Shown here one piece after another: positions 26 to 10,024 of a stretch of DNA of 11,059 nucleotides. Origin of the DNA: Nanobdellota archaeon (GTDB lineage Archaea; Nanobdellota; Nanobdellia; Pacearchaeales; GW2011-AR1); assembly GCA_020056045.1 (NCBI GenBank), contig JAGVIM010000131.1, forward strand, positions 1 to 11,059, written 5' to 3'. Under the pieces are notes generated by a model. It did no database searches. It had not been told where the DNA came from and saw nothing but the letters and a program-made list of their open reading frames with translations. The position numbers and the translations under genes were made by a program. Within the stretch, counting starts at the first letter, position 1; each line of letters begins with the position of its first letter.

Positions 26-64
26 TTTAAACCCCTCGAAGACTTCAATATTGTTTGAACCTAT
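26..64 (-). promoter_or_regulatory. Promoter module copy 1 (operator palindrome + TATA), reading out of the window to the left
   Basis: Read on the minus strand, a 26-bp block at 64-39 is identical to the block at 2031-2006. It contains the core GTTCAAACAATATTGAAG, a TTCAA-N6-TTGAA palindrome (arms at 55-59 and 44-48). After exactly 7 bp comes a TATA-like TTTAAA at 31-26. In copies 2 and 3 the TATA box lies 22-29 bases before an ATG, so a leaderless gene should start near position 2, just leaving the window. The module begins 4 bases after the stop of the 120-aa membrane protein. The role is inferred from sequence repetition and spacing. Confidence 0.7.
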
Positions 65-68
65 AATC

Positions 69-431
69 TTATTTTAAATGAAAAGTTTCCCAAAAAATAA
101 TAATTATTTGAAGAACTACTACTAAACAAACTCCAAAAAAAATTCCAATAAAAGGAAATATTGCTAATAAATTTGAAAAATTATAGCCCATATTATTCTG
201 AGCAAAAAACCACCAAGCTATAAGTAAACCAACTATAAATGTCAAAACAGAAAGTATAATTTGAAAAATTAAAGAAGTTGTTCTCAATTTTTCACTTTCA
301 GTTTTTATTCTAATAATACTAAAGATAATAAACCCTATTCCAAATGGAGAAAAAAGTGAAAAAATAGTTGATACTACAAACATTATTGCAAAATATATAA
401 GCATTGAAGGCAAATCTCCTAGGTACATCAT
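69..431 (-). CDS. Small multi-span membrane protein, unknown function, coupled to the DUF2330-like gene
   Basis: A 120-aa protein that is almost entirely hydrophobic. Spans are visible at about residues 9-40 (probably one long or two short helices around SPFG), 52-75 and 85-115, with a short charged loop (RIKTESEKLR) at about 41-50. Its ATG overlaps the stop of the upstream gene as ATGA (428-431), so the two are co-transcribed and probably translationally coupled. An AGGAGG ribosome binding site at 439-434 precedes two consecutive ATG codons. The second (428) has the more usual 5-base spacing from GGAGG, giving 119 aa. I do not recognise a family. The context suggests it works in the membrane with the DUF2330-like protein, perhaps as a partner of its C-terminal membrane bundle. 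The gene is very likely real; the function is unknown. Confidence 0.85.
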   Translation of the reverse strand: MMYLGDLPSMLIYFAIMFVVSTIFSLFSPFGIGFIIFSIIRIKTESEKLRTTSLIFQIILSVLTFIVGLLIAWWFFAQNNMGYNFSNLLAIFPFIGIFFGVCLVVVLQIIIIFWETFHLK

Positions 432-1969
432 TGCCTCCTATATCTTATTGCAAGTAAACTAAAAATAATCATCAAAACTAAGATTAATAACCAGGTAATT
501 GTTAATGAAACTACAATATAGTCTCCTAAAGATCCACTAATGGCTGCAATTAAAAAGAAAAATGCCCCAATAATAAATGTCAAAACAAAAGATATTATTC
601 CAATTATCCATCCCAGTATTCTTAATGGTTTGGTTACACTAAAAAACAATATTAAAATTCCAACAATAAACAAAATTCCTAAAGGGGGAGTAAAAATCCA
701 AACAATAAAAACAACTAATCCCCAAATCATTCCTTGCAAGAATAATTCCCAAATCTCAGGACCTGCATTAACCTTTTTATTATTTTCTGCCTTAGTTAGA
801 TAAATATCTTCATCCATTTGGCTTTTTTGCATGTTTGCAGAAAGTGAAGTCAAATAATATTTCGAATCCTTAGGCTCAATAAAAGGATTTCCACTATCAT
901 CATTCCCTAATTTATTTATATCATTTTTCTTTACCCAATTTCCATATTGAATATAAAATCCATCTGCTTCATATTTTCCATCTGCAAAAACATAAAGTTG
1001 TATAGGAGTATAACCTCTATAATTATAATCATTAGAATCAACATAATTTATTCCTCCTGGTTGTTGATCTATATAATAATCATTATTACAACTCTCTCCA
1101 CCAGTTGGATAACTTCTACACCAATTAGCTAAATTAACATCATTTGTCTTTTTTGTCCATATATAACCACTAGAATCTGTTCTAGTAGCGCCAATTAACT
1201 CCTCTTTTGCAGATCCATATTTTTTCTCATTGTTATTTGGAAAATTAACAGAAGATATTTTTAATGGAAAAACAATCTTATCACTTAAAAAAACCATTTT
1301 AATTGGTGTTGGATTACCTTCTTTTAAATCTTGAATAACTTCTGTTGCACCCTGAGCTTCAGGAGAAACCCTAATTGCAGTAAAATACCAACCCTTATTT
1401 ATATAACTTTCAAGAACATAAGAATATTCTTTAGGATAACTATACTTATTATCATTAAACCATTTTACTAAATCCTGTGAACTAGTTGCAATAAGAACCT
1501 TTACATCATAATAATCAACTTGCTTGGAACTAATAACATAAACTCCCTGATTCATATCTCCTGCTCCCTTTGCTACAGACATAACTTCTGCAAATCCTAT
1601 TCCCCTATTAGCATATTTAGGATAAGCAAGCTTTTGAGCATTTGTAAAAACTTTTTCATTAGCTTTAGTTATTTCAGGTTTAGTAGGGGTTGGAACAATC
1701 CACACTAAATCTTTTGCATTTCCCTTAAACACTGAAGTTAAAATCATTGTTTCAGTATTATCCTCATGAAAAATAACTGCTCTTTGTTGCCCAGGAGTAA
1801 CCCAATAACCTGGACGTGGAAAATAACCCCCGTCAGCTAAAACAAAACATAAATTAATGATAATTATTCCCAATACAATTAAAAAAATAAAATTACGTTT
1901 AAACCTATTTTTCATATTATATTCTGCATTATATACTTTATAAATTTTCTCTTCGTTTTTATTTTTCAT
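428..1969 (-). CDS. DUF2330-like surface protein with C-terminal membrane bundle
   Basis: A 513-aa protein. A hydrophobic segment at residues 25-45 (ending FVLADGGYF) looks like a signal peptide or anchor. The following region has the look of the DUF2330 family: Q-R-A-V-I-F-H-E-D with T-E-T-M-I-L at 62-77, then a gap to DLVWIVPTPTKPE (87-99). DUF2330 is known only as an uncharacterised, usually exported domain. The external part runs to about 400 and holds two cysteines (284, 294) close enough for a disulfide. Three or four membrane spans follow at about 408-446, 452-478 and 484-507, ending in basic RYRRQ. Two starts are possible. The ATG at 1969 has the repeated promoter module. The ATG at 1915 (residue 19) gives a cleaner signal peptide and has its own TTTATAAA 22-29 bases upstream. 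Domain assignment is by eye. Confidence 0.85.
   Translation of the reverse strand: MKNKNEEKIYKVYNAEYNMKNRFKRNFIFLIVLGIIIINLCFVLADGGYFPRPGYWVTPGQQRAVIFHEDNTETMILTSVFKGNAKDLVWIVPTPTKPEITKANEKVFTNAQKLAYPKYANRGIGFAEVMSVAKGAGDMNQGVYVISSKQVDYYDVKVLIATSSQDLVKWFNDNKYSYPKEYSYVLESYINKGWYFTAIRVSPEAQGATEVIQDLKEGNPTPIKMVFLSDKIVFPLKISSVNFPNNNEKKYGSAKEELIGATRTDSSGYIWTKKTNDVNLANWCRSYPTGGESCNNDYYIDQQPGGINYVDSNDYNYRGYTPIQLYVFADGKYEADGFYIQYGNWVKKNDINKLGNDDSGNPFIEPKDSKYYLTSLSANMQKSQMDEDIYLTKAENNKKVNAGPEIWELFLQGMIWGLVVFIVWIFTPPLGILFIVGILILFFSVTKPLRILGWIIGIISFVLTFIIGAFFFLIAAISGSLGDYIVVSLTITWLLILVLMIIFSLLAIRYRRQ
434..439 (-). promoter_or_regulatory. Ribosome binding site AGGAGG inside the end of the DUF2330-like gene
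   Basis: The minus strand reads TAGGAGGCAATGATG. The purine run is 2 bases before the first ATG and 5 before the second, favouring initiation at 428 or either codon. It supports coupled translation of an internal operon gene, in contrast to the leaderless first genes nearby. Confidence 0.7.
1937..1944 (-). promoter_or_regulatory. Possible internal TATA box for the alternative start at 1915
   Basis: TTTATAAA lies within the first codons of the DUF2330-like frame, 22-29 bases before the in-frame ATG at 1915. This is the same geometry as the two leaderless promoters at 2156-2163 and 2216-2223. Initiation here would remove 18 polar residues and leave a standard signal peptide. In such AT-rich DNA a chance match is possible. 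Confidence 0.35.
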
Positions 1970-1992
1970 AAAAAATTAAAACAGAACTTCTA

Positions 1993-2031
1993 TTTAAATC
2001 CAGTCAAGACTTCAATATTGTTTGAACCTAT
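1993..2031 (-). promoter_or_regulatory. Promoter module copy 2 (operator palindrome + TATA) of the DUF2330-like gene
   Basis: On the minus strand the 26-bp block 2031-2006 carries GTTCAAACAATATTGAAG (arms TTCAA/TTGAA at 2022-2026 and 2011-2015). Then come 7 bp and TTTAAA at 1998-1993. The ATG at 1969 lies 24-29 bases downstream, which predicts a leaderless mRNA. The block is identical to copy 1 and resembles copy 3. Because the palindrome sits upstream of the TATA/BRE region, an activator or special initiation factor is more likely than a roadblock repressor. The stop codon of the 40-aa gene (2012-2014) lies inside the block. Confidence 0.75.
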
Positions 2032-2134
2032 TTGATTTTTTCTTCCTGTTAATCATTAATGAAATTACCATTACAGCTAGAAAAGAAGTTACTAAAGCAA
2101 TCAGTTTATCCATATTCAATAAAAAAGATTCCAT
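2012..2134 (-). CDS. 40-aa single-span membrane peptide (smORF)
   Basis: ATG at 2134, TGA at 2014-2012. The peptide has a short acidic/polar N-terminus (MESFLLNMDK), one hydrophobic span at about residues 11-28 (LIALVTSFLAVMVISLMI) and a strongly basic C-terminal tail (NRKKKSNRFKQY). That is a typical positive-inside single-span membrane microprotein. A TTTATAAA box at 2163-2156 lies 22-29 bases before the ATG, and promoter module copy 3 lies directly upstream, so a leaderless transcript is predicted. No ribosome binding site is seen, as expected for leaderless genes. The stop codon falls within promoter module copy 2, so the 3' end of this gene doubles as the control region of the next gene. 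It could be a chance ORF, but promoter spacing and membrane topology argue for a gene. Function unknown. Confidence 0.6.
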   Translation of the reverse strand: MESFLLNMDKLIALVTSFLAVMVISLMINRKKKSNRFKQY

Positions 2135-2155
2135 AAAATAATTAAGAAAAATTTA

Positions 2156-2196
2156 TTTATAAATCCAACGAAAGCTTCAATCCTAATTGAACTGAT
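2156..2196 (-). promoter_or_regulatory. Promoter module copy 3 (operator palindrome + TATA) of the 40-aa gene, in a divergent intergenic region
   Basis: On the minus strand, block 2196-2171 contains AGTTCAATTAGGATTGAAGC, with perfect 6-bp arms TTCAAT/ATTGAA at 2176-2181 and 2186-2191 around a 4-bp centre. After 7 bp (CGTTGGA) comes TTTATAAA at 2163-2156. This matches copies 1 and 2 in the TTCAA/TTGAA arms, the total block length and the 12-bp distance from palindrome to TATA. The bases between the arms differ, which points to selection on the palindrome itself. The same palindrome lies about 25 bp upstream of the plus-strand TATA box at 2216. Confidence 0.7.
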
Positions 2197-2244: not shown

Positions 2245-2430
2245 ATGAATAAATGGTTAGAAATCTTAGTAGGTCTGATACTAGTAATAGCTGCAGTTGC
2301 TGCATGGGCAACATTTCCAAACTCAGTTGGAGCAGCTGCCTTGGCATTTCTTGAAGGGGGAATTGTCTGGCTTCTAGTTATTGTGGGCCTATTATTCCTA
2401 ATATTAGGACTAAGCGATCTAAAAGAGTGA
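2245..2430 (+). CDS. Small two-span membrane protein, unknown function
   Basis: A 61-aa protein with an amphipathic start (MNKWLEILVG), a first span at about residues 7-24, a short turn with FPNSVGAAA, a second span at about 38-56 and an acidic end (LSDLKE). The layout is a hairpin with both ends on one side. There is no ribosome binding site, but a TATA box 22-29 bases upstream suggests leaderless translation. It is divergent from the 40-aa membrane peptide and shares its intergenic control region, so it may belong to the same membrane-protein regulon. I do not recognise a named family, though short two-span proteins of this kind are common in archaeal genomes. Good coding potential; function unknown. 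Confidence 0.75.
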   Translation: MNKWLEILVGLILVIAAVAAWATFPNSVGAAALAFLEGGIVWLLVIVGLLFLILGLSDLKE

Positions 2431-2538: not shown

Positions 2539-3798
2539 ATGTCAACTCAATTATTTGATAATGAACTCTGTGTAAAATGTAGGGGGAGGGGTTTTTGCAA
2601 TAAGCCCTGCAGAATTTATTCTAAAATAAAAGATTTTACTCCCAAAACAAAAACACATTTTTCAGGCTCAAGCCCTCCTGAAATTTTTGTAGGAAAATTT
2701 AATTATCCAAATATCTCTGCAGGAATATTGGCTCCCGATAACTCAGAATCAGATTCTGAGAGAAATATGGAATTCTCTGCACAAGAAAGTGCAGAGCTTG
2801 CTTACCCAGAAATTTGGCATGAAAAAAAATTTTCAATTGATACAATTCTCACAAATAGATCCAAATTAATTTATGGTAAATTCAAAACAGAAATAAAAGC
2901 AAAAAATAATAAATTCACAAATTTAATGCAAGAAGTATCAATGGCCTACAAATCTGTTTCAACAGAATTTTTTCTTAAAAAACCTCCAGCATATAGACTT
3001 GAAATAAATAAACATCTTCCATTAATAGGAAATCCTGCATATCTAGAAAATGTAAGATTAGAAGAAAACCCTCAAATAAAACCAAAAGTAGAATATCTAG
3101 TTTCAGATACAGAAAATAAAGCAGTAAATTCCATTCTAGAATTATACAAATCTCAGATTGCTGTCACCAATATTAATAAAATATTAAGTGCAGGATTATT
3201 AGGACTCAAAACTCAAAGAAAACTAGTTCCAACAAGATGGTCAATTACAGCAGTAGATGATACAATTTCAAAAAATCTTTTAAAAAATATTAAATACTAT
3301 CCTGAAATAAATGAAATTCTCCTATTTCATGGATACTATGTTGGGAATCACTATGAAATTCTCCTCCTACCAGATAAATTTTCATTTGAAGTAATGGAAG
3401 CCTATATGCCTGGAAGTTTATGGAACCTACAATCAGGAACAAATCTTTCACAAGACTATGAAAGATTTAATGGAAGAAAATATTATGCAGACAGTGTAAC
3501 AGGAGCATACTATACGATGAGACTTGCTTTATGTGAGTATTTAGAAAAAATAAAAAGACAAGCCTATTGCATTGTCTTTAGAGAAGAACGTCCTGAATAT
3601 TATGCACCATTAGGAGTTGGAATTTTAAGAGAATTAGCAAGAGAAGCCTTCAACAAACAGCCTGAAAAATTTAATACAATAGAAGAGGCTCTAAAGCAAT
3701 CCCAAACAAGATTAAAACTTCCAATAAAAACTTTCACAAACAAATCTATTCTTTTAAAAGAATACAAACAACAAACGAGGTTAAATAAGTGGGTTTAG
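2539..3798 (+). CDS. nreA: Archaeal Nre-family DNA-repair protein (NreA-like) with PIP box
   Basis: A 419-aa protein. The N-terminus carries four cysteines, C11-x2-C14-x5-C20-x3-C24 (CVKCRGRGFCNKPC), a likely zinc-binding knuckle followed by GSSPPEIFVGKFNYPNISAG at 42-61, which is characteristic of the Nre family (DUF650/DUF651). The second half (about 230-395) has the conserved PTRWSITAVDDTIS block and the GNHYEILLLP and LGVGILRE segments. The last residues, Q412-T-R-L415-N-K-W418-V, form a PCNA-interacting (PIP) motif. In Haloferax, NreA is known to aid repair of DNA damage through PCNA; its biochemical activity is not settled. Length is normal for the family and the protein appears intact. 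The gene stands alone with its own promoter. Its TAG stop directly abuts the stop of the convergent PIN-domain gene. Confidence 0.92.
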   Translation: MSTQLFDNELCVKCRGRGFCNKPCRIYSKIKDFTPKTKTHFSGSSPPEIFVGKFNYPNISAGILAPDNSESDSERNMEFSAQESAELAYPEIWHEKKFSIDTILTNRSKLIYGKFKTEIKAKNNKFTNLMQEVSMAYKSVSTEFFLKKPPAYRLEINKHLPLIGNPAYLENVRLEENPQIKPKVEYLVSDTENKAVNSILELYKSQIAVTNINKILSAGLLGLKTQRKLVPTRWSITAVDDTISKNLLKNIKYYPEINEILLFHGYYVGNHYEILLLPDKFSFEVMEAYMPGSLWNLQSGTNLSQDYERFNGRKYYADSVTGAYYTMRLALCEYLEKIKRQAYCIVFREERPEYYAPLGVGILRELAREAFNKQPEKFNTIEEALKQSQTRLKLPIKTFTNKSILLKEYKQQTRLNKWV

Positions 3799-4302
3799 TT
3801 ATTTAAATATATTAATTGCATTTATAACTTCATCAATTAAATCTTTAGTAATAAATAAAGAAGACTTGGAATGTAATTCATTCACTTTTTCTATTGCTAT
3901 TTTTTTATTTATTATTTTTTCCCTAAATGCTCTTAATACAATTCCAACTGTACCATGAACTTCAAGATTATATTTTATAGCTATATTTCTTGCATCAAGA
4001 TCATCTGTCAAAAAACAATTAACTTTTTCCTGCATTGCAAGAACTATTGCACATGCTTCTCCTAAATCAAGATTCTCTTGATTAGTCAAAACTTTGACAT
4101 TATCCTTAAATTCAGGTTTTAACCCAGATACTTTTATTTGTTTAGGAACAGAAGTTTTACTTAATCTAAGTTCATTAGATACTTCTTCTGGAATTAAAAT
4201 TTCTGAAAAAATATTCAGGCTATTTATTAAATCAATTTCAGTTAAGTGGATTATTGGTCCAGTATCAGAAACAGATTTGTTTATAACTCCCTTATTTGCC
4301 AT
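3799..4302 (-). CDS. PIN-domain toxin (DUF3368-like ribonuclease) of a type II toxin-antitoxin pair
   Basis: A 167-aa protein when started at the ATG at 4302. PIN-domain hallmarks in order are VSDTGPIIHL (D13), the IPEEVSNEL helix (E39/E40), LDLGEACAI (E82) and LTDDLDARNIA (D100, D101, D103). Together these give the acidic Mg-binding site of PIN ribonucleases. LEVHGTVGIVLRA and the C-terminal helices resemble DUF3368-type PIN proteins. PIN toxins typically cleave RNA and are held inactive by the antitoxin. An in-frame ATG at 4374 would add 24 residues and overlap the antitoxin gene by 22 bp. I prefer 4302, because family members normally start just before the SDTGP strand, but neither start has a clear ribosome binding site. 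The gene follows the RHH antitoxin in the usual antitoxin-first order. All acidic residues are present, so it is probably active. Confidence 0.85.
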   Translation of the reverse strand: MANKGVINKSVSDTGPIIHLTEIDLINSLNIFSEILIPEEVSNELRLSKTSVPKQIKVSGLKPEFKDNVKVLTNQENLDLGEACAIVLAMQEKVNCFLTDDLDARNIAIKYNLEVHGTVGIVLRAFREKIINKKIAIEKVNELHSKSSLFITKDLIDEVINAINIFK

Positions 4303-4352
4303 TTTCAGTAAAACGAAAAATGGGAAAGACAGAAAATTCCCATAAATTTTCT

Positions 4353-4559
4353 TTATTTGCCATAAAGCCCCCATTGAATATCGCTTTTTATAGCAGACTC
4401 CAACTGAGCAACTTTTTGTTTTTTTATTAAATCCCGAACAGCGTTCCTGATAAGTTCAGACTTATTAGCATACCACCCCTGTTTAATTAGTTCCTCCATT
4501 TCATCAACTATTCTTTTAGTTAATTTTGCAGGTACACATTCCATATCTGAGTTTTCCAT
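4353..4559 (-). CDS. Ribbon-helix-helix antitoxin of the PIN toxin
   Basis: A 68-aa protein. A short beta strand (MECVPAKLT, residues 6-14) is followed by two helices, about 17-28 and 33-45, with the typical RHH/CopG sequence KSELIRNAVRDLI. RHH proteins dimerise through the strand and bind palindromic operators. The C-terminal tail (KKQKVAQLESAIKSDIQWGLYGK) would be the toxin-binding part. The preferred start is the ATG at 4559, because a TATA-like TTTAAAA lies 25-31 bases upstream. An in-frame ATG at residue 6 is an alternative. A perfect inverted repeat lies between TATA and start, suggesting autoregulation. Confidence in the antitoxin role comes from fold, size and the neighbouring PIN gene. 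Confidence 0.85.
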   Translation of the reverse strand: MENSDMECVPAKLTKRIVDEMEELIKQGWYANKSELIRNAVRDLIKKQKVAQLESAIKSDIQWGLYGK

Positions 4560-4732: not shown

Positions 4733-4739
4733 TCACCCC
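4733..4739 (-). promoter_or_regulatory. GGGGTGA ribosome binding site overlapping the SpoIIM-like stop codon
   Basis: It matches the archaeal anti-SD complement (GGTGA) and includes the TGA stop of the upstream gene, 2 bases before the ATG of the 30-aa ORF. It is the main evidence that this small ORF is translated. Confidence 0.55.
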
Positions 4740-5587
4740 AACATCACAATCAAAGCACTTTCAATTATTCCAGCAATTACCAAAAGGGGGATTATGACAA
4801 AAATAAAAACTCTAATTGAATTTTTAAGATCAGATATAAAATTCTCTTTTATTTTTTCAGACTCTTTTTTGGAAAAAATAAAAAAACTAACAAAAATACT
4901 CAAAAACCAAAAAATTAACATTAAAAAAATATAAAAAATAATAAAAAAAGTATTTTTCATCAATGAATCAGTATAATTTTGAATAACTACTTTATCAAAA
5001 GATCCGGCAGTTAAAGAAATAACAACTGAAAAGACACTAAGTAGAACTAAAAAACACATAAGAGATAAAATAATTGCAAAAAATCCTCTTGATTTTTTCT
5101 TAGCATGTAGAAAAAATAATCCTAATTTAATTCCAAGACCAACACTAATTAAAACAGCAGGTATTTCAAATATTCCATGGGGAAATAATTTCCATAAAAC
5201 TAATAATCCGCTAGAATTAACTGCATTATAAGAAACAAAACCTAAAAGAAAACCATTAACAACAGCTATTACAATGGGAATAATACTAAAAACTATTCCA
5301 AAAATAAGCCCATAAAGAGAACTTTTTATATTATTACTAGTTATAAAAGAAACAAATCCAAAAAAATCAAGATCTTTTGTTTGATCTAATAATTGTTTAA
5401 TAAGCTTTAATAACTGTTCTTCAAATAAATGAGGAAAAATATATCCCAAAACTCCGCTAAATAAAAATAAAAATACAGCAAACCAAATATAATTTCTAGA
5501 CTCTTTAATATAATTAAGAGAAATTTTAAAATTATTATAAATAAAATTTCCAGATTTTTTTAACTCCTTCTTTTTTGTTTTTTTCAT
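4733..5587 (-). CDS. SpoIIM/DUF95-family integral membrane protein
   Basis: A 284-aa protein with a lysine-rich cytoplasmic N-terminus (residues 1-12) and about six hydrophobic segments at roughly 33-52, 92-118, 127-160, 168-193, 212-239 and 259-282. The signature FPHGIFEIPA (135-144), the preceding NGFLLGFV (111-118) and the terminal PLLVIAGIIESAL block identify the SpoIIM (stage II sporulation protein M, DUF95) family. In Bacillus, SpoIIM belongs to a complex that activates peptidoglycan hydrolases. Archaeal members have no known role and certainly none in sporulation. It starts 6 bases after the rhomboid stop and is followed directly by a 30-aa ORF, so it is in the TFE-rhomboid transcription unit. 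The protein looks complete. Family assignment is strong; function is open. Confidence 0.9.
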   Translation of the reverse strand: MKKTKKKELKKSGNFIYNNFKISLNYIKESRNYIWFAVFLFLFSGVLGYIFPHLFEEQLLKLIKQLLDQTKDLDFFGFVSFITSNNIKSSLYGLIFGIVFSIIPIVIAVVNGFLLGFVSYNAVNSSGLLVLWKLFPHGIFEIPAVLISVGLGIKLGLFFLHAKKKSRGFFAIILSLMCFLVLLSVFSVVISLTAGSFDKVVIQNYTDSLMKNTFFIIFYIFLMLIFWFLSIFVSFFIFSKKESEKIKENFISDLKNSIRVFIFVIIPLLVIAGIIESALIVMLG

Positions 5588-5593
5588 TTTAAA

Positions 5594-6469
5594 TCATCTT
5601 GAAAAATATTTGGAAATTAAAGCTGTCTTCTTTTTATATTTCTTTTTAAGATAAAGAGCAAAAATTAAACCAACAATTAATCCCCCTAAATGCGCACTAT
5701 TACCTATGGGAAGATCAATAAACAAACCAATTAAGATTAAGGGAACAATGGCAATTACAGGTAATATCCAGAATTTCATTTTAACAGGAAATGATAATCT
5801 CCTTATTTTCTCATTAAAAGAAAATACAGAAAATATTGAAATTAAAATATAAAGACTCAAAAATAAATCCAATATTGAAAGAATGCTTTTAGAACTAATA
5901 ACAGAAGAAAGAACAGCCTGTAAAACCAAGGCAACCAAAGGACCAACAATCAAATAAACACTATTTAAAGGAGTCAAAACTGCAAGAAGTCCTAATAAAG
6001 AAAAAATAGCTCCTGAAGCACCGACTGCATAAGTTTCTGGACTTCCAAATAATCTAGCCCCAATAAGACTTATTCCAAAATAATGTGCAAGAAAAACATA
6101 AAATAATCCTGCAAATAATCCTGCAATTATATACAAAGAAAAAAATCTTTTTCTTCCAATTAATCTTTCTACAAAATTGCCAATAAAAAACAATGAAAAC
6201 ATATTAGCCAATAAATGCCATAATTGAAAATGAATAAACATACTAGTAAAAACATTCCAAATTTTTCCTGCAAAAAATTCATTTGCCTGTAAAGCAAATA
6301 AAGATGCAACAGTGTCTTCCCCTAAATACTTAACAAGAAAAAATATAATAAAAAAAACAATAACATTAGCTATTATTATCCAATTTGTAACACTTATAGT
6401 ATTAAAAAAACTTCCAAAAAAAACCTTTTTTAATCTCTTCCGAGTATAATTTCTAAGTCTATTCTCCAT
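5594..6469 (-). CDS. Rhomboid-family intramembrane serine protease
   Basis: A 291-aa protein when started at the ATG at 6469, 7 bases after the TFE stop. It has a basic N-terminus, a first span at about 29-47, the conserved loop/helix LWHLLANMFSLFFIGNFVE (83-101, with H85 and N89), the catalytic serine motif GASGAIFSLLG (S152) and the catalytic histidine in SAHLGGLIVG (H260). Ser-His dyad and scaffold residues are present, so it should be an active protease cleaving membrane substrates. The linker between Ser and His spans (about 160-250) is long and contains extra hydrophobic segments. The open frame continues upstream to a TTG at 6595, but that part only reads the basic TFE tail out of frame and is not included. 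The neighbouring SpoIIM-like membrane protein may be a partner or substrate; this is inference. Confidence 0.92.
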   Translation of the reverse strand: MENRLRNYTRKRLKKVFFGSFFNTISVTNWIIIANVIVFFIIFFLVKYLGEDTVASLFALQANEFFAGKIWNVFTSMFIHFQLWHLLANMFSLFFIGNFVERLIGRKRFFSLYIIAGLFAGLFYVFLAHYFGISLIGARLFGSPETYAVGASGAIFSLLGLLAVLTPLNSVYLIVGPLVALVLQAVLSSVISSKSILSILDLFLSLYILISIFSVFSFNEKIRRLSFPVKMKFWILPVIAIVPLILIGLFIDLPIGNSAHLGGLIVGLIFALYLKKKYKKKTALISKYFSR

Positions 6470-6476
6470 TTTATAA

Positions 6477-7205
6477 TTATTTTTTCTTTTTTTTCTGTTT
6501 ACCTCTAGACTTAACAATATTCTTAGCTTTTTTAATCTTCTGATTTTTCTTATCCCCCGTAGGTTTAGATTTTTTAATCTCTTTCTTAACAGCAACTCTA
6601 ATGTCCCTATTCTTTTTTCTTATTGCCTTTGCTTTTCTTTCAGCATTTTTAATCTTAACAACTTTCTTCTTTTCAAGTTTATTCTCTTCAATCTTTCTTT
6701 CACTTGAAACAAGATCTATTTCTTTTTTTGTTCTAATAATATTTTTTTCAAGTTCATTTATAAAATCCTTATTATTGGACAAATGATAAACTTCTTCACA
6801 TTCTGGGCAAACAAAATCATTGAGTAAAGCAGATTCTTCATTTATTTCTATTGAACAAGTATTGCAAAGATAATATCTTTTTTCATTTCTATTTTTTAGC
6901 TGAGCCTCTAAATTTTCCAACTCTTTTTTTAAATTCTCTTCTAATAATTTAAGAGATTGATAGGTATTTAATGTCCAAAAATAAATATACCATCCTTTTC
7001 TCTTATCTTTCTTTCTAATAAAAGATACTAAACCATAATCAGATAATTTATACAAAATATTTCTAGTCTGATTTATTGTTAATTTCAACTTTTTAGCTAT
7101 TAAAAATTCATTTACATTCTTTTTATCAACCAATAAATCTATAATTGGTACTGCCTGCTTATTTATCAGCGTTTCGACAATGGATTTGAGAAATTTCGTC
7201 TGCAT
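6477..7205 (-). CDS. tfe: Transcription factor E (TFE alpha) with long basic C-terminal extension
   Basis: A 242-aa protein. Residues 1-80 form the winged-helix domain (FLIAKKLKLTINQTRNILYK, then a wing around GWYIYFWTLN). A coiled coil follows at 82-108, then a zinc ribbon with C114-x2-C117 (YLCNTC) and C133-x2-C136 (VCPEC). This is the layout of archaeal TFE/eukaryotic TFIIE-alpha, which helps RNA polymerase open promoters together with TBP and TFB. Most archaeal TFEs end soon after the ribbon, at about 170-180 aa. Here roughly 70 further residues are dominated by lysine and arginine, ending GKQKKKKK, and could bind nucleic acid. It is the first gene of an operon with rhomboid and SpoIIM-like genes. 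The start is ATG at 7205 without a visible ribosome binding site; the TATA region is at 7282-7269. Confidence 0.93.
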   Translation of the reverse strand: MQTKFLKSIVETLINKQAVPIIDLLVDKKNVNEFLIAKKLKLTINQTRNILYKLSDYGLVSFIRKKDKRKGWYIYFWTLNTYQSLKLLEENLKKELENLEAQLKNRNEKRYYLCNTCSIEINEESALLNDFVCPECEEVYHLSNNKDFINELEKNIIRTKKEIDLVSSERKIEENKLEKKKVVKIKNAERKAKAIRKKNRDIRVAVKKEIKKSKPTGDKKNQKIKKAKNIVKSRGKQKKKKK

Positions 7206-8404: not shown

Positions 8405-10024
8405 CTATTCAGCACTCATAAAAGGTCCTTCAACACAAGTTCTTAATCCTTTTTCATTTGCACAACTTCCACATATACCCACTCCACATCTTGTCATATA
8501 ATCAACAGAAGAATATATTTTTTCTCCACCAGAAACCTGCATTTCCAAAGGCAAAACAGCTTCAACCATTGCCCTAGGCCCACAATTAAAAAAATAACTT
8601 CCCGTAGGTATTTTTGCTACCCTTAATAAATCAGCAATCGTTCCTTTTCTTCCTAGACTTCCATCTTCAGTTACGATTTTAACATCTCCAAATCTAGAAA
8701 ATCTTTCTACATAAAGCAAATGCTCCCTATCTTTAGCACCAAGCAAACTAACAACATAGGTTTTTTCAGATAATCTTTTAGCCAACAAATATAATCCAGC
8801 GATTCCGCAACCACCTCCAACTAAAACAACATTTGAACCATTAGGAACTTCAACGCTTCGTCCATGAGGACCTCTAACATAAAATTCATCTCCAACTTTT
8901 AATGAATTAAAATGCCTTGTGAAATACCCCCTTTCTAAGACACCAAGAGTTAAAGGTGAATCATCCATTATTGAAAAAGGCTTTTCACCTACTCCTGGAA
9001 TCCAAGCAAAAACAAACTGACCTGGTTTTGATTCAAGTCTTTCATTAGTCTTAACAACTTTAAAATTACAATCAGGATTTACAATTTCTTCAACTTTAAC
9101 TTTTCTATAATTCATATCAACTTTTTTTAATCTTTCTTCTGCAAGATTTGTTCCTTGCCGTATATCATAAACTAAAGCAACAAAATAATCTTTTATATCC
9201 CTATCATCCATTCCAGCGAGTGCACTACCAATTCCAAATACATTTGCACCAGCTTTTGCATAAGCCCTTACATCATTAAAATTAAAAATCCCACCCATAC
9301 CAATTATAGGAATATTTTCTCCAACAGCCTGTCTAATATCTCTAACACATTTAACTCCAATGGGAGTAATTCCTTTTCCACTAAGTCCTCCTACCTTATT
9401 TGTTAATACTTCATAACCATCAATCATATGACAGCCAGGACCAACAGTATTTATTGCAACAATACCATAAGCACCTGCATTAACAGCAGCTTTTGCAATC
9501 TCTCCAATATTTGATGCATTAGGAGTTAATTTTGCAAAAACAGGTATTTTTACATTTCTAACAACAGCATGTGTAATCTCATAAACTAAATTAGGATCTT
9601 GACCTAATTGCATTCCATAACCTTTTGCATGTGGACAAGATAAATTTAATTCAAAACCATCAACATGTTCTTCTAAAGTTCTAGCAACATATACAAATTC
9701 ATCTGCATTACCTCCAAAAATACTAGCTAATAAAAATTTATCACTAGGAAAATTAATATGAGAAAGCTCTCTTGCAAATTTCTCACAACCAGGATTTGTT
9801 AGTCCAACAGCATTTACAAAACTTCCAGGTGCATATTGAGAAAAAATAGGTTCTCTATTTCCAACCCTAGGTTCAGGTCCAATGCTCTTTGTAGTAATAA
9901 TTCCAAGTTCAGGAATCTCTCTTGCAAGTTTTTCTAAGCTTTGTGCAGAAGTTGTTACAATTCCAGAAGGAATTGTAAATGGCATTACTTCTTTTCCAGC
10001 AATTTGAATTTTTTCTACTTTCAT
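8405..10024 (-). CDS. pyrD: Fused dihydroorotate dehydrogenase PyrD-PyrK (class 1B, NAD-type)
   Basis: A 539-aa protein from the ATG at 10024; the frame extends to a TTG at 10063 inside a hairpin, which I reject. Residues 1-300 are a class 1 DHOD barrel: ITTKSIGPEPR (43-53), FELNLSCPHAKG with catalytic Cys130, VFAKLTPNAS (162-171), INTVGPG (191-197), GGLSGKGI (212-219) and the FMN-phosphate region IIGMGGIFNFND and GIGSAL. Residues about 305-539 are a PyrK domain: a flavin site at WIPGVGEKPFSI (341-352), a nucleotide-binding loop VLVGGGCGIAGL (400-411) and a [2Fe-2S] site C513-x4-C518-x2-C521-x8-C530. PyrD oxidises dihydroorotate to orotate; PyrK passes the electrons to NAD+. Usually these are two genes; here they are one chain with no frameshift needed. 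It lies behind dihydroorotase, the preceding pathway step. Confidence 0.93.
   Translation of the reverse strand: MKVEKIQIAGKEVMPFTIPSGIVTTSAQSLEKLAREIPELGIITTKSIGPEPRVGNREPIFSQYAPGSFVNAVGLTNPGCEKFARELSHINFPSDKFLLASIFGGNADEFVYVARTLEEHVDGFELNLSCPHAKGYGMQLGQDPNLVYEITHAVVRNVKIPVFAKLTPNASNIGEIAKAAVNAGAYGIVAINTVGPGCHMIDGYEVLTNKVGGLSGKGITPIGVKCVRDIRQAVGENIPIIGMGGIFNFNDVRAYAKAGANVFGIGSALAGMDDRDIKDYFVALVYDIRQGTNLAEERLKKVDMNYRKVKVEEIVNPDCNFKVVKTNERLESKPGQFVFAWIPGVGEKPFSIMDDSPLTLGVLERGYFTRHFNSLKVGDEFYVRGPHGRSVEVPNGSNVVLVGGGCGIAGLYLLAKRLSEKTYVVSLLGAKDREHLLYVERFSRFGDVKIVTEDGSLGRKGTIADLLRVAKIPTGSYFFNCGPRAMVEAVLPLEMQVSGGEKIYSSVDYMTRCGVGICGSCANEKGLRTCVEGPFMSAE

Follow-up and report, generated by a model that had tools for sequence, protein, structure and literature searches.

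The window analysed here is a stretch of 11,059 nucleotides, one whole contig (C160; JAGVIM010000131.1) of the draft genome of a Nanobdellota archaeon (assembly GCA_020056045.1), which comprises 1.31 Mb in 262 contigs and is 73% complete. It carries three copies of a promoter module in which the palindrome GTTCAA-N6-TTGAAG stands at a constant distance in front of a TATA-like box. In related genomes, the same module precedes genes for membrane and secreted proteins as well as the gene of a protein that joins an ArsR-like winged helix to predicted membrane helices. We consider it probable that this protein is a transmembrane one-component regulator that acts on its own gene and on a regulon of envelope genes, and that the module combines its operator with the core promoter.

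Three Copies of the Module in the Window

The palindrome has been found at 43-60 (copy 1), 2010-2027 (copy 2), and 2175-2192 (copy 3), in all cases on the minus strand, in agreement with the three TTCAA...TTGAA blocks that had been reported in a preliminary description of this DNA. With up to two mismatches allowed on both strands, the window holds 12 matches, a number in which each of the three sites is counted on both strands, against 2.54 expected, and none of 200 shuffled windows has reached 12. The claimed identity of copies 1 and 2 over 26 bp (39-64 and 2006-2031) has been confirmed, and the two share 88% identity over 41 bp; copy 3 differs in its centre and flanks and shares 68% identity with copy 1 over 41 bp. 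The TATA-like boxes, also on the minus strand, read TTTAAA at 26-31 for copy 1 and at 1993-1998 for copy 2, and TTTATA at 2158-2163 for copy 3. The spacing from TTGAA to TTTAWA amounts to 12 nt at all three copies, as had been described, and the ATG claimed for copies 2 and 3 lies in both at offset 29 from the first T of the box (1998 to 1969 and 2163 to 2134, respectively). For copy 1, an ATG at this offset would start at position 2, and the contig stops at its 'AT', so that no gene is visible behind this copy. A scan of the window against Rfam, in which an RNA element was looked for, has given no family at the gathering score.

Conservation of the Module in Related Genomes

The preliminary description had proposed a search of the whole genome and of relatives in which the TATA box and the ATG are part of the pattern. 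The bare 18-bp palindrome has been rejected as a search pattern: without a TATA box it also occurs inside coding DNA of the own genome (once in contig C30, twice in C255), which we take as chance, and in relatives its excess over the reversed control is merely moderate. For these reasons, the spaced pattern has been adopted. In the own draft genome, the 22-position module with up to three mismatches gives five matches and its reversed control none, the matches being the three window copies and one site each on contigs C69 and C187. The C69 site precedes a 714-aa protein with a signal-like N-terminus. Behind the C187 site (L161, minus strand, near the contig end), an 18-aa open reading frame (ORF), perhaps a leader peptide, begins at offset 29 and is followed by AAAGGAGG and, at the contig end, by another ATG; as ORFs of at least 30 aa were counted in our survey of loci, this site is listed there as being without an ORF.

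A search of 56 family genomes for TTCAA-N6-TTGAA with TTTAWA behind it at gaps of 2-24 nt has given 115 matches, 44 of them at a gap of 12 nt. Outside the own genome, the 12-nt gap accounts for 39 matches, and the other 22 gaps average 3.05 each (seven at gap 3, nine at gap 24). The exact module, consisting of the palindrome, 12 nt, the TATA box, and an ATG at offset 29, has been counted 103 times, in 69 of the 181 genomes searched in the family; the reversed control has given no match. The site is thus kept in relatives at a fixed distance to both the TATA box and the ATG; the random positions, the mobile-repeat or CRISPR distribution, and the lack of conservation that would have spoken against the preliminary description have not been observed. 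A looser pattern with up to three mismatches has been applied to 89 genomes and set aside, since among the matches listed the control counts are as high as the match counts in many genomes; its low-mismatch matches and a few with two or three mismatches have served as leads.

The dyad arms range from 5 to 13 bp across sites, and the longest are the perfect 13-bp arms GCGAAGACTTCAA-N6-TTGAAGTCTTCGC at L291. Extended arms, GATAACTTCAA-N6-TTGAAGTTATC, are also present at the G029 site (likewise L307). In view of these two sites, the CTTCG conserved in many of the spacers may be regarded as belonging to the right arm. The part of the spacer that adjoins the TATA box is itself partly conserved.

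Genes Behind the Sites

The 39 exact sites with a 12-nt gap outside the own genome form an unselected set, to which a larger set of 59 loci adds hand-picked mismatch sites from the loose search. Seventeen of the 39 lie in front of a gene for the helix-turn-helix (HTH) protein treated below as the candidate regulator and 18 in front of other ORFs; the remaining four have no ORF behind them, which is about the number expected by chance. The start codon is found at offset 28-30 in 30 of the 35 ORF-bearing sites (including two genes in which a second, in-frame ATG lies at 29) and at 32 to 76 in the other five. A hydrophobic N-terminal stretch is present in 17 of the 18 non-regulator targets, among them L120 with its ORF start at offset 76, compared with 39 of 97 other ORFs of the fetched loci (Fisher 1.3e-5). 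The earlier claim that the targets are membrane or secreted proteins is largely borne out by these relatives; in the window, it extends to copies 2 and 3, copy 1 having no visible target at the contig end. Pfam scans of 20 targets, hand-picked sites included, have given clear matches to SIMPL (four), serpin (one), a dockerin protein (one), and DUF3160 (one), and no family or weak matches for the rest.

From the TATA box towards the start, the secreted-protein targets of different genomes L106, L113, L117, L126, L130, L139, L149, L151, L152, L160, and L161 have a second block in common, TTTAAAAAGAGG, in place of which regulator promoters carry TTTATAAA. One operator is combined with two promoter flavours downstream.

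A Candidate Transmembrane Regulator

The candidate regulator begins with an ArsR-like winged helix (HTH_20 and HTH_5 in Pfam) and occurs in two forms. The short form of ∼180-220 aa has one or, mostly, two predicted membrane segments after the HTH; the long form of ∼700-925 aa, a range that leaves out a 641-aa case cut by its contig end, combines a single membrane helix with a Beta_propel domain (PF09826). Among three regulator proteins scanned with Pfam, HTH_20 is above the cut-off in two, and HTH_5 is above it in one, reaches 21.9 of 22 bits in another, and is unlisted in the third; both of the long forms scanned match Beta_propel with E values no higher than 1e-157. HAMP is absent from the listings of the three proteins in this general scan, and neither form has an NCBIfam model above the cut-off. 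A hydrophobic segment is present in the complete regulators of the family and of the named loci described below, and 39 of the 42 short forms have been aligned (alignment A3), L263 (its protein being identical to that of L264), L303, and the truncated L312 being omitted.

AlphaFold has predicted the winged helix of the short form with a local confidence score (pLDDT) above 90, followed by long helices at residues 101-143 and 179-201 (mean pLDDT 78; predicted template-modelling score, pTM, 0.47), and for the long form a beta-rich, predicted outside part (pTM 0.68). Foldseek has related the short form to CadC, CzrA, Phr, and TFE-alpha, and the long form to generic beta-propellers only, with low template-modelling scores. 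Judged by its predicted domains, the protein is ArsR-like in its winged helix and combines a DNA-binding domain and a membrane helix in one chain, as transmembrane transcription regulators do.

For the distribution of the regulator, an HTH profile (A1) has been built from 24 sequences chosen from genes behind the site, with L140 left out on account of unread residues. It has detected the regulator in 26 of the 56 family genomes, with one match each and E up to 1e-10, in 11 of 18 genus genomes with E below 1e-30, and in 184 of the 371 genomes of a phylum sample with E up to 1e-8, 183 of them having a single match.

The Site at the Regulator's Own Promoter

Twenty-two of the 26 family regulators have the site at the right place with at most one mismatch. 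In G090, the promoter of the regulator shows paired changes in both arms (TCCAA..TTGGA), G104 has a degenerate site, and the locus of G042 is cut by a contig edge. A second set comprises 62 named loci from the GTDB collection, mostly titled Candidatus Pacearchaeota or Nanoarchaeota, 61 of which are judgeable: the module is exact in 42, has one mismatch in 10, two in one, and three in one, and is missing in seven. Among these seven, L284 and L292 have a site one small ORF upstream (L158 and L147, on the same contigs), and in L312 the palindrome and TATA box lie farther from the start used.

As A1 is derived from site-bearing genes, the fairest test is provided by 40 distant regulators of order or class level, which were hand-picked to span families among the matches listed of the 184. 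Without exception, these proteins have a hydrophobic segment after the HTH, and a second one is present in 36 of them. At least six of the seven letters of ACTTCAA are found 55-66 nt before the ATG in 27 of the 40, compared with 0-2 in nine windows farther upstream; at five of seven letters, the numbers are 36 of 40 and 5-14, respectively. Across the 56 family genomes, 21 hold both the regulator and an exact site, five the regulator only, five the site only, and 25 neither (Fisher 1.5e-6). An operator that appears to be shared at a fixed promoter position by several genes and by the regulator's own gene is the pattern of a regulon.

Window Genes and Synteny With Regulator Loci

Copy 3 precedes the gene of a 40-aa membrane peptide (2012-2134, minus strand), which resembles the 46-aa (G009) and 41-aa (G014) peptides that precede the regulator in two relatives, at 37% and 31% identity, respectively, when four sequences are aligned. 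Behind copy 2 lies the gene of a 513-aa DUF2330 (PF10092) protein (428-1969, minus), whose end is overlapped by the start of the gene for a 120-aa hydrophobic protein without a Pfam match (69-431, minus). A stretch of 33 residues in the DUF2330 protein matches the final portion of the G009 regulator (L143:1046-3754) at 61% identity, as if sensor and target had a module in common.

Seven stretches from the genus, all of them selected for holding the regulator, have been compared with the window. A 61-aa protein, which in the window is encoded divergently (2245-2430, plus strand) and has no match in Pfam and NCBIfam scans, lies near the regulator in five of the seven, archaeal Nre (2539-3798, plus) in four, and a SpoIIM-like protein (4733-5587, minus), a rhomboid (5594-6466, minus), and TFE-alpha (6477-7205, minus) in three each. 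The order in G009 is TFE-alpha, rhomboid, SpoIIM, 61-aa protein, Nre, site, 46-aa peptide, site, and beta-propeller regulator. For G001, the series reads TFE-alpha, rhomboid, SpoIIM, Nre, 61-aa protein, site, and regulator, and G002 has the same without Nre; the short contig of G014 runs Nre, 61-aa protein, site, 41-aa peptide, and regulator. In G015, Nre and the 61-aa protein are ∼4 kb away from the regulator; G005 shares none of this neighbourhood, and in G008 the only match is a weak and distant one to the rhomboid.

In the window, TFE-alpha, rhomboid, and SpoIIM are followed by a PIN/RHH pair, Nre, and the 61-aa protein, and then by copy 3, the 40-aa peptide, copy 2, the DUF2330 protein, the 120-aa protein, and copy 1 at the contig end. 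Because the window is syntenic with the regulator loci of several relatives, a regulator gene is expected behind copy 1, and the gene cut off there is probably that of the regulator. The cassette of the DUF2330 and 120-aa proteins is flanked by copies 1 and 2 and stands between the small peptide and the position of the regulator in relatives; one of the two promoters, that of copy 1 or of copy 2, has therefore probably arisen by duplication.

Two further observations concern neighbouring genes. At 3799-4559 on the minus strand, a DUF3368 (PIN-like) gene overlaps with a small gene whose ribbon-helix-helix (RHH) matches stay below the threshold; together they form the pair just named, which G009 lacks in its gene order and which looks like an inserted toxin-antitoxin pair. 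At 8405-10024 (minus), one ORF encodes a dihydroorotate dehydrogenase that carries a DHODB iron-sulphur binding domain at its C-terminus; PyrD and PyrK functions seem to be fused in it.

Proposed Mechanism and Alternative Explanations

In the proposed mechanism, the operator, which in regulator promoters is approximately ATAACTTCAA-N6-TTGAASTYTTCG, would be bound as a dyad by the winged helix, presumably through a dimer of the membrane-bound protein. The inside and outside assignment follows from the DNA-binding role given to the N-terminal part: the winged helix would be cytoplasmic and continue either into two membrane helices with a short outside stretch between them or into one helix and an extracytoplasmic beta-propeller. 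The regulator would control its own gene and a small envelope set of membrane peptides, SIMPL, serpin, dockerin, DUF3160, DUF2330, and other secreted proteins, and the outside loop or propeller may sense an envelope signal. The fixed ATG offset suggests leaderless mRNAs, with which the dyad would span -57 to -42, just upstream of the region of the B recognition element (BRE) and TATA box. A position upstream of the BRE, where activators act, had been proposed in the preliminary description and would agree with this geometry. As the dyad leaves the TATA box and the start free, recruitment of TFB and TBP would fit better than steric repression, and we think it rather likely that the regulator activates in this way.

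Several observations weigh against the regulon as outlined. No regulator has been found in the assembled part (73%) of the own genome, where the sole match of A1 is the TFE-alpha of the window (E 5e-6); the conserved HTH gene with the same site, which the preliminary description had asked for, is thus present in relatives and missing from the own assembly, and the envelope regulon that had been proposed there without a named regulator is supported with the same restriction. The regulator of G041 has no site, and an exact site without a detected regulator occurs in G000, G038, G093, G026, and G095, of which the sites in G026 and G095, having no ORF behind them, look like chance. Exact sites are few per genome and in many genomes there is only one, which may reflect a small regulon or a less strict motif. 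An operator has been looked for near the DUF2330 homologues of G014 and G032 (L008, L009), and none was found. In the distant families, inspection by eye has shown a right arm that is often TCAAA, a TATA box that can be shifted by ∼2 nt, and weaker dyad symmetry. Finally, the genomes are mostly metagenome bins, and the counts are not independent, since A1 was built from site-bearing genes and the genome sets overlap.

The five of 56 genomes with an exact site and no detected regulator, together with the own assembly, might point to a different, soluble protein that binds the palindrome, the transmembrane HTH gene being merely one of its targets. We regard this as improbable, as the gene co-occurs with the site and is a target common to many genomes and to other families, its HTH resembles dimeric ArsR proteins, and in G090 the arms of its own promoter have changed in pairs. 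Even less probable is a constitutive strong-promoter signal, such as an extended BRE or one for an alternative TFB, that serves highly expressed envelope genes without regulation: the fixed distances to the TATA box and ATG and the partly conserved spacer adjoining the TATA box would suit it, whereas a dyad with 5- to 13-bp arms, the small number of sites per genome, and the tie to one HTH gene would not. Hardly any weight can be given to a local duplication or mobile repeat of no regulatory meaning. Copies 1 and 2, identical over 26 bp, do flank one gene cassette, and duplication may be the origin of one of them, but copy 3 differs in its centre and flanks, and in 69 of 181 genomes the module keeps its spacing with other letters between and around the arms.

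A variant that is compatible with the first part of our proposal, the autoregulated transmembrane regulator, concerns the direction of control: the same protein could act as a repressor of its own gene and of the envelope genes until it is released by a signal from outside. Most ArsR-family proteins are repressors, and negative autoregulation is common. Repression nevertheless appears unlikely to us, though by a smaller degree than the explanations above, as the dyad stops 12 nt before the TATA box and leaves box and start free, and as the archaeal membrane-bound ArnR is described as an activator (PMC6396743).

Relation to Known Regulators

ArsR/SmtB repressors (CadC, CzrA) and the Pyrococcus heat-shock regulator Phr share the winged-helix fold with the regulator (Foldseek) as well as the HTH_5/HTH_20 matches. 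They are soluble, whereas the DPANN regulator carries membrane helices. According to their published description, ArnR and ArnR1 of Sulfolobus acidocaldarius are membrane-bound one-component regulators of archaellum and pili (PMC6396743). They, too, have an N-terminal HTH and membrane helices in one chain, inverted-repeat boxes in the target promoter, and surface-structure genes as targets (PMC6396743). The short form of the DPANN regulator has an HTH and two helices, the long form one helix and a propeller. ArnR is described with a putative HAMP and a sensing domain before two C-terminal membrane helices and with type-IV-pilus targets (PMC6396743); the DPANN regulator differs from this account in its ArsR-like HTH, the short stretch or beta-propeller outside, its own operator, and its mixed secreted targets.

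Transmembrane transcription regulators (TTRs), which have the combination of DNA-binding domain and membrane helix in one protein, have been surveyed and are common in archaea (Demey et al., 2023; PMC10269533). The main text of this survey does not mention DPANN, Nanoarchaeota, Woesearchaeota, Pacearchaeota, ArsR, or HTH_20, and the first part of its results gives no operators or regulons for archaeal TTRs. As a kind, such regulators are already known from that survey, and this family, its operator, and its regulon have not been met in our literature search, in which, judged by titles and the openings of abstracts, neither the module nor the regulator is described in DPANN archaea.

Implications for DPANN Biology

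To our knowledge, gene regulation is still little understood in the DPANN archaea, a group with few cultivable members. Here, an operator, a core promoter, a candidate regulator, and its targets have been derived across many genomes from sequence alone. The geometry of the module is exact enough for the prediction of transcription starts, it provides a ready test of possible transcription factor action from the membrane in archaea, and it offers a handle on the envelope genes of cells that are thought to depend on host contact. Far more speculatively, and with a chance that we would put no higher than slight to modest, the protein may be a membrane-tethered activator, usually one per genome and present in about half of the sampled phylum genomes, which by way of its operator holds surface-protein genes at the membrane, so that leaderless mRNAs of secreted proteins would be made at the place of insertion, while its outside beta-propeller or loop would report on envelope condition or host-cell contact. 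If true, this could be the first DPANN regulon for which operator, regulator, and targets are defined.

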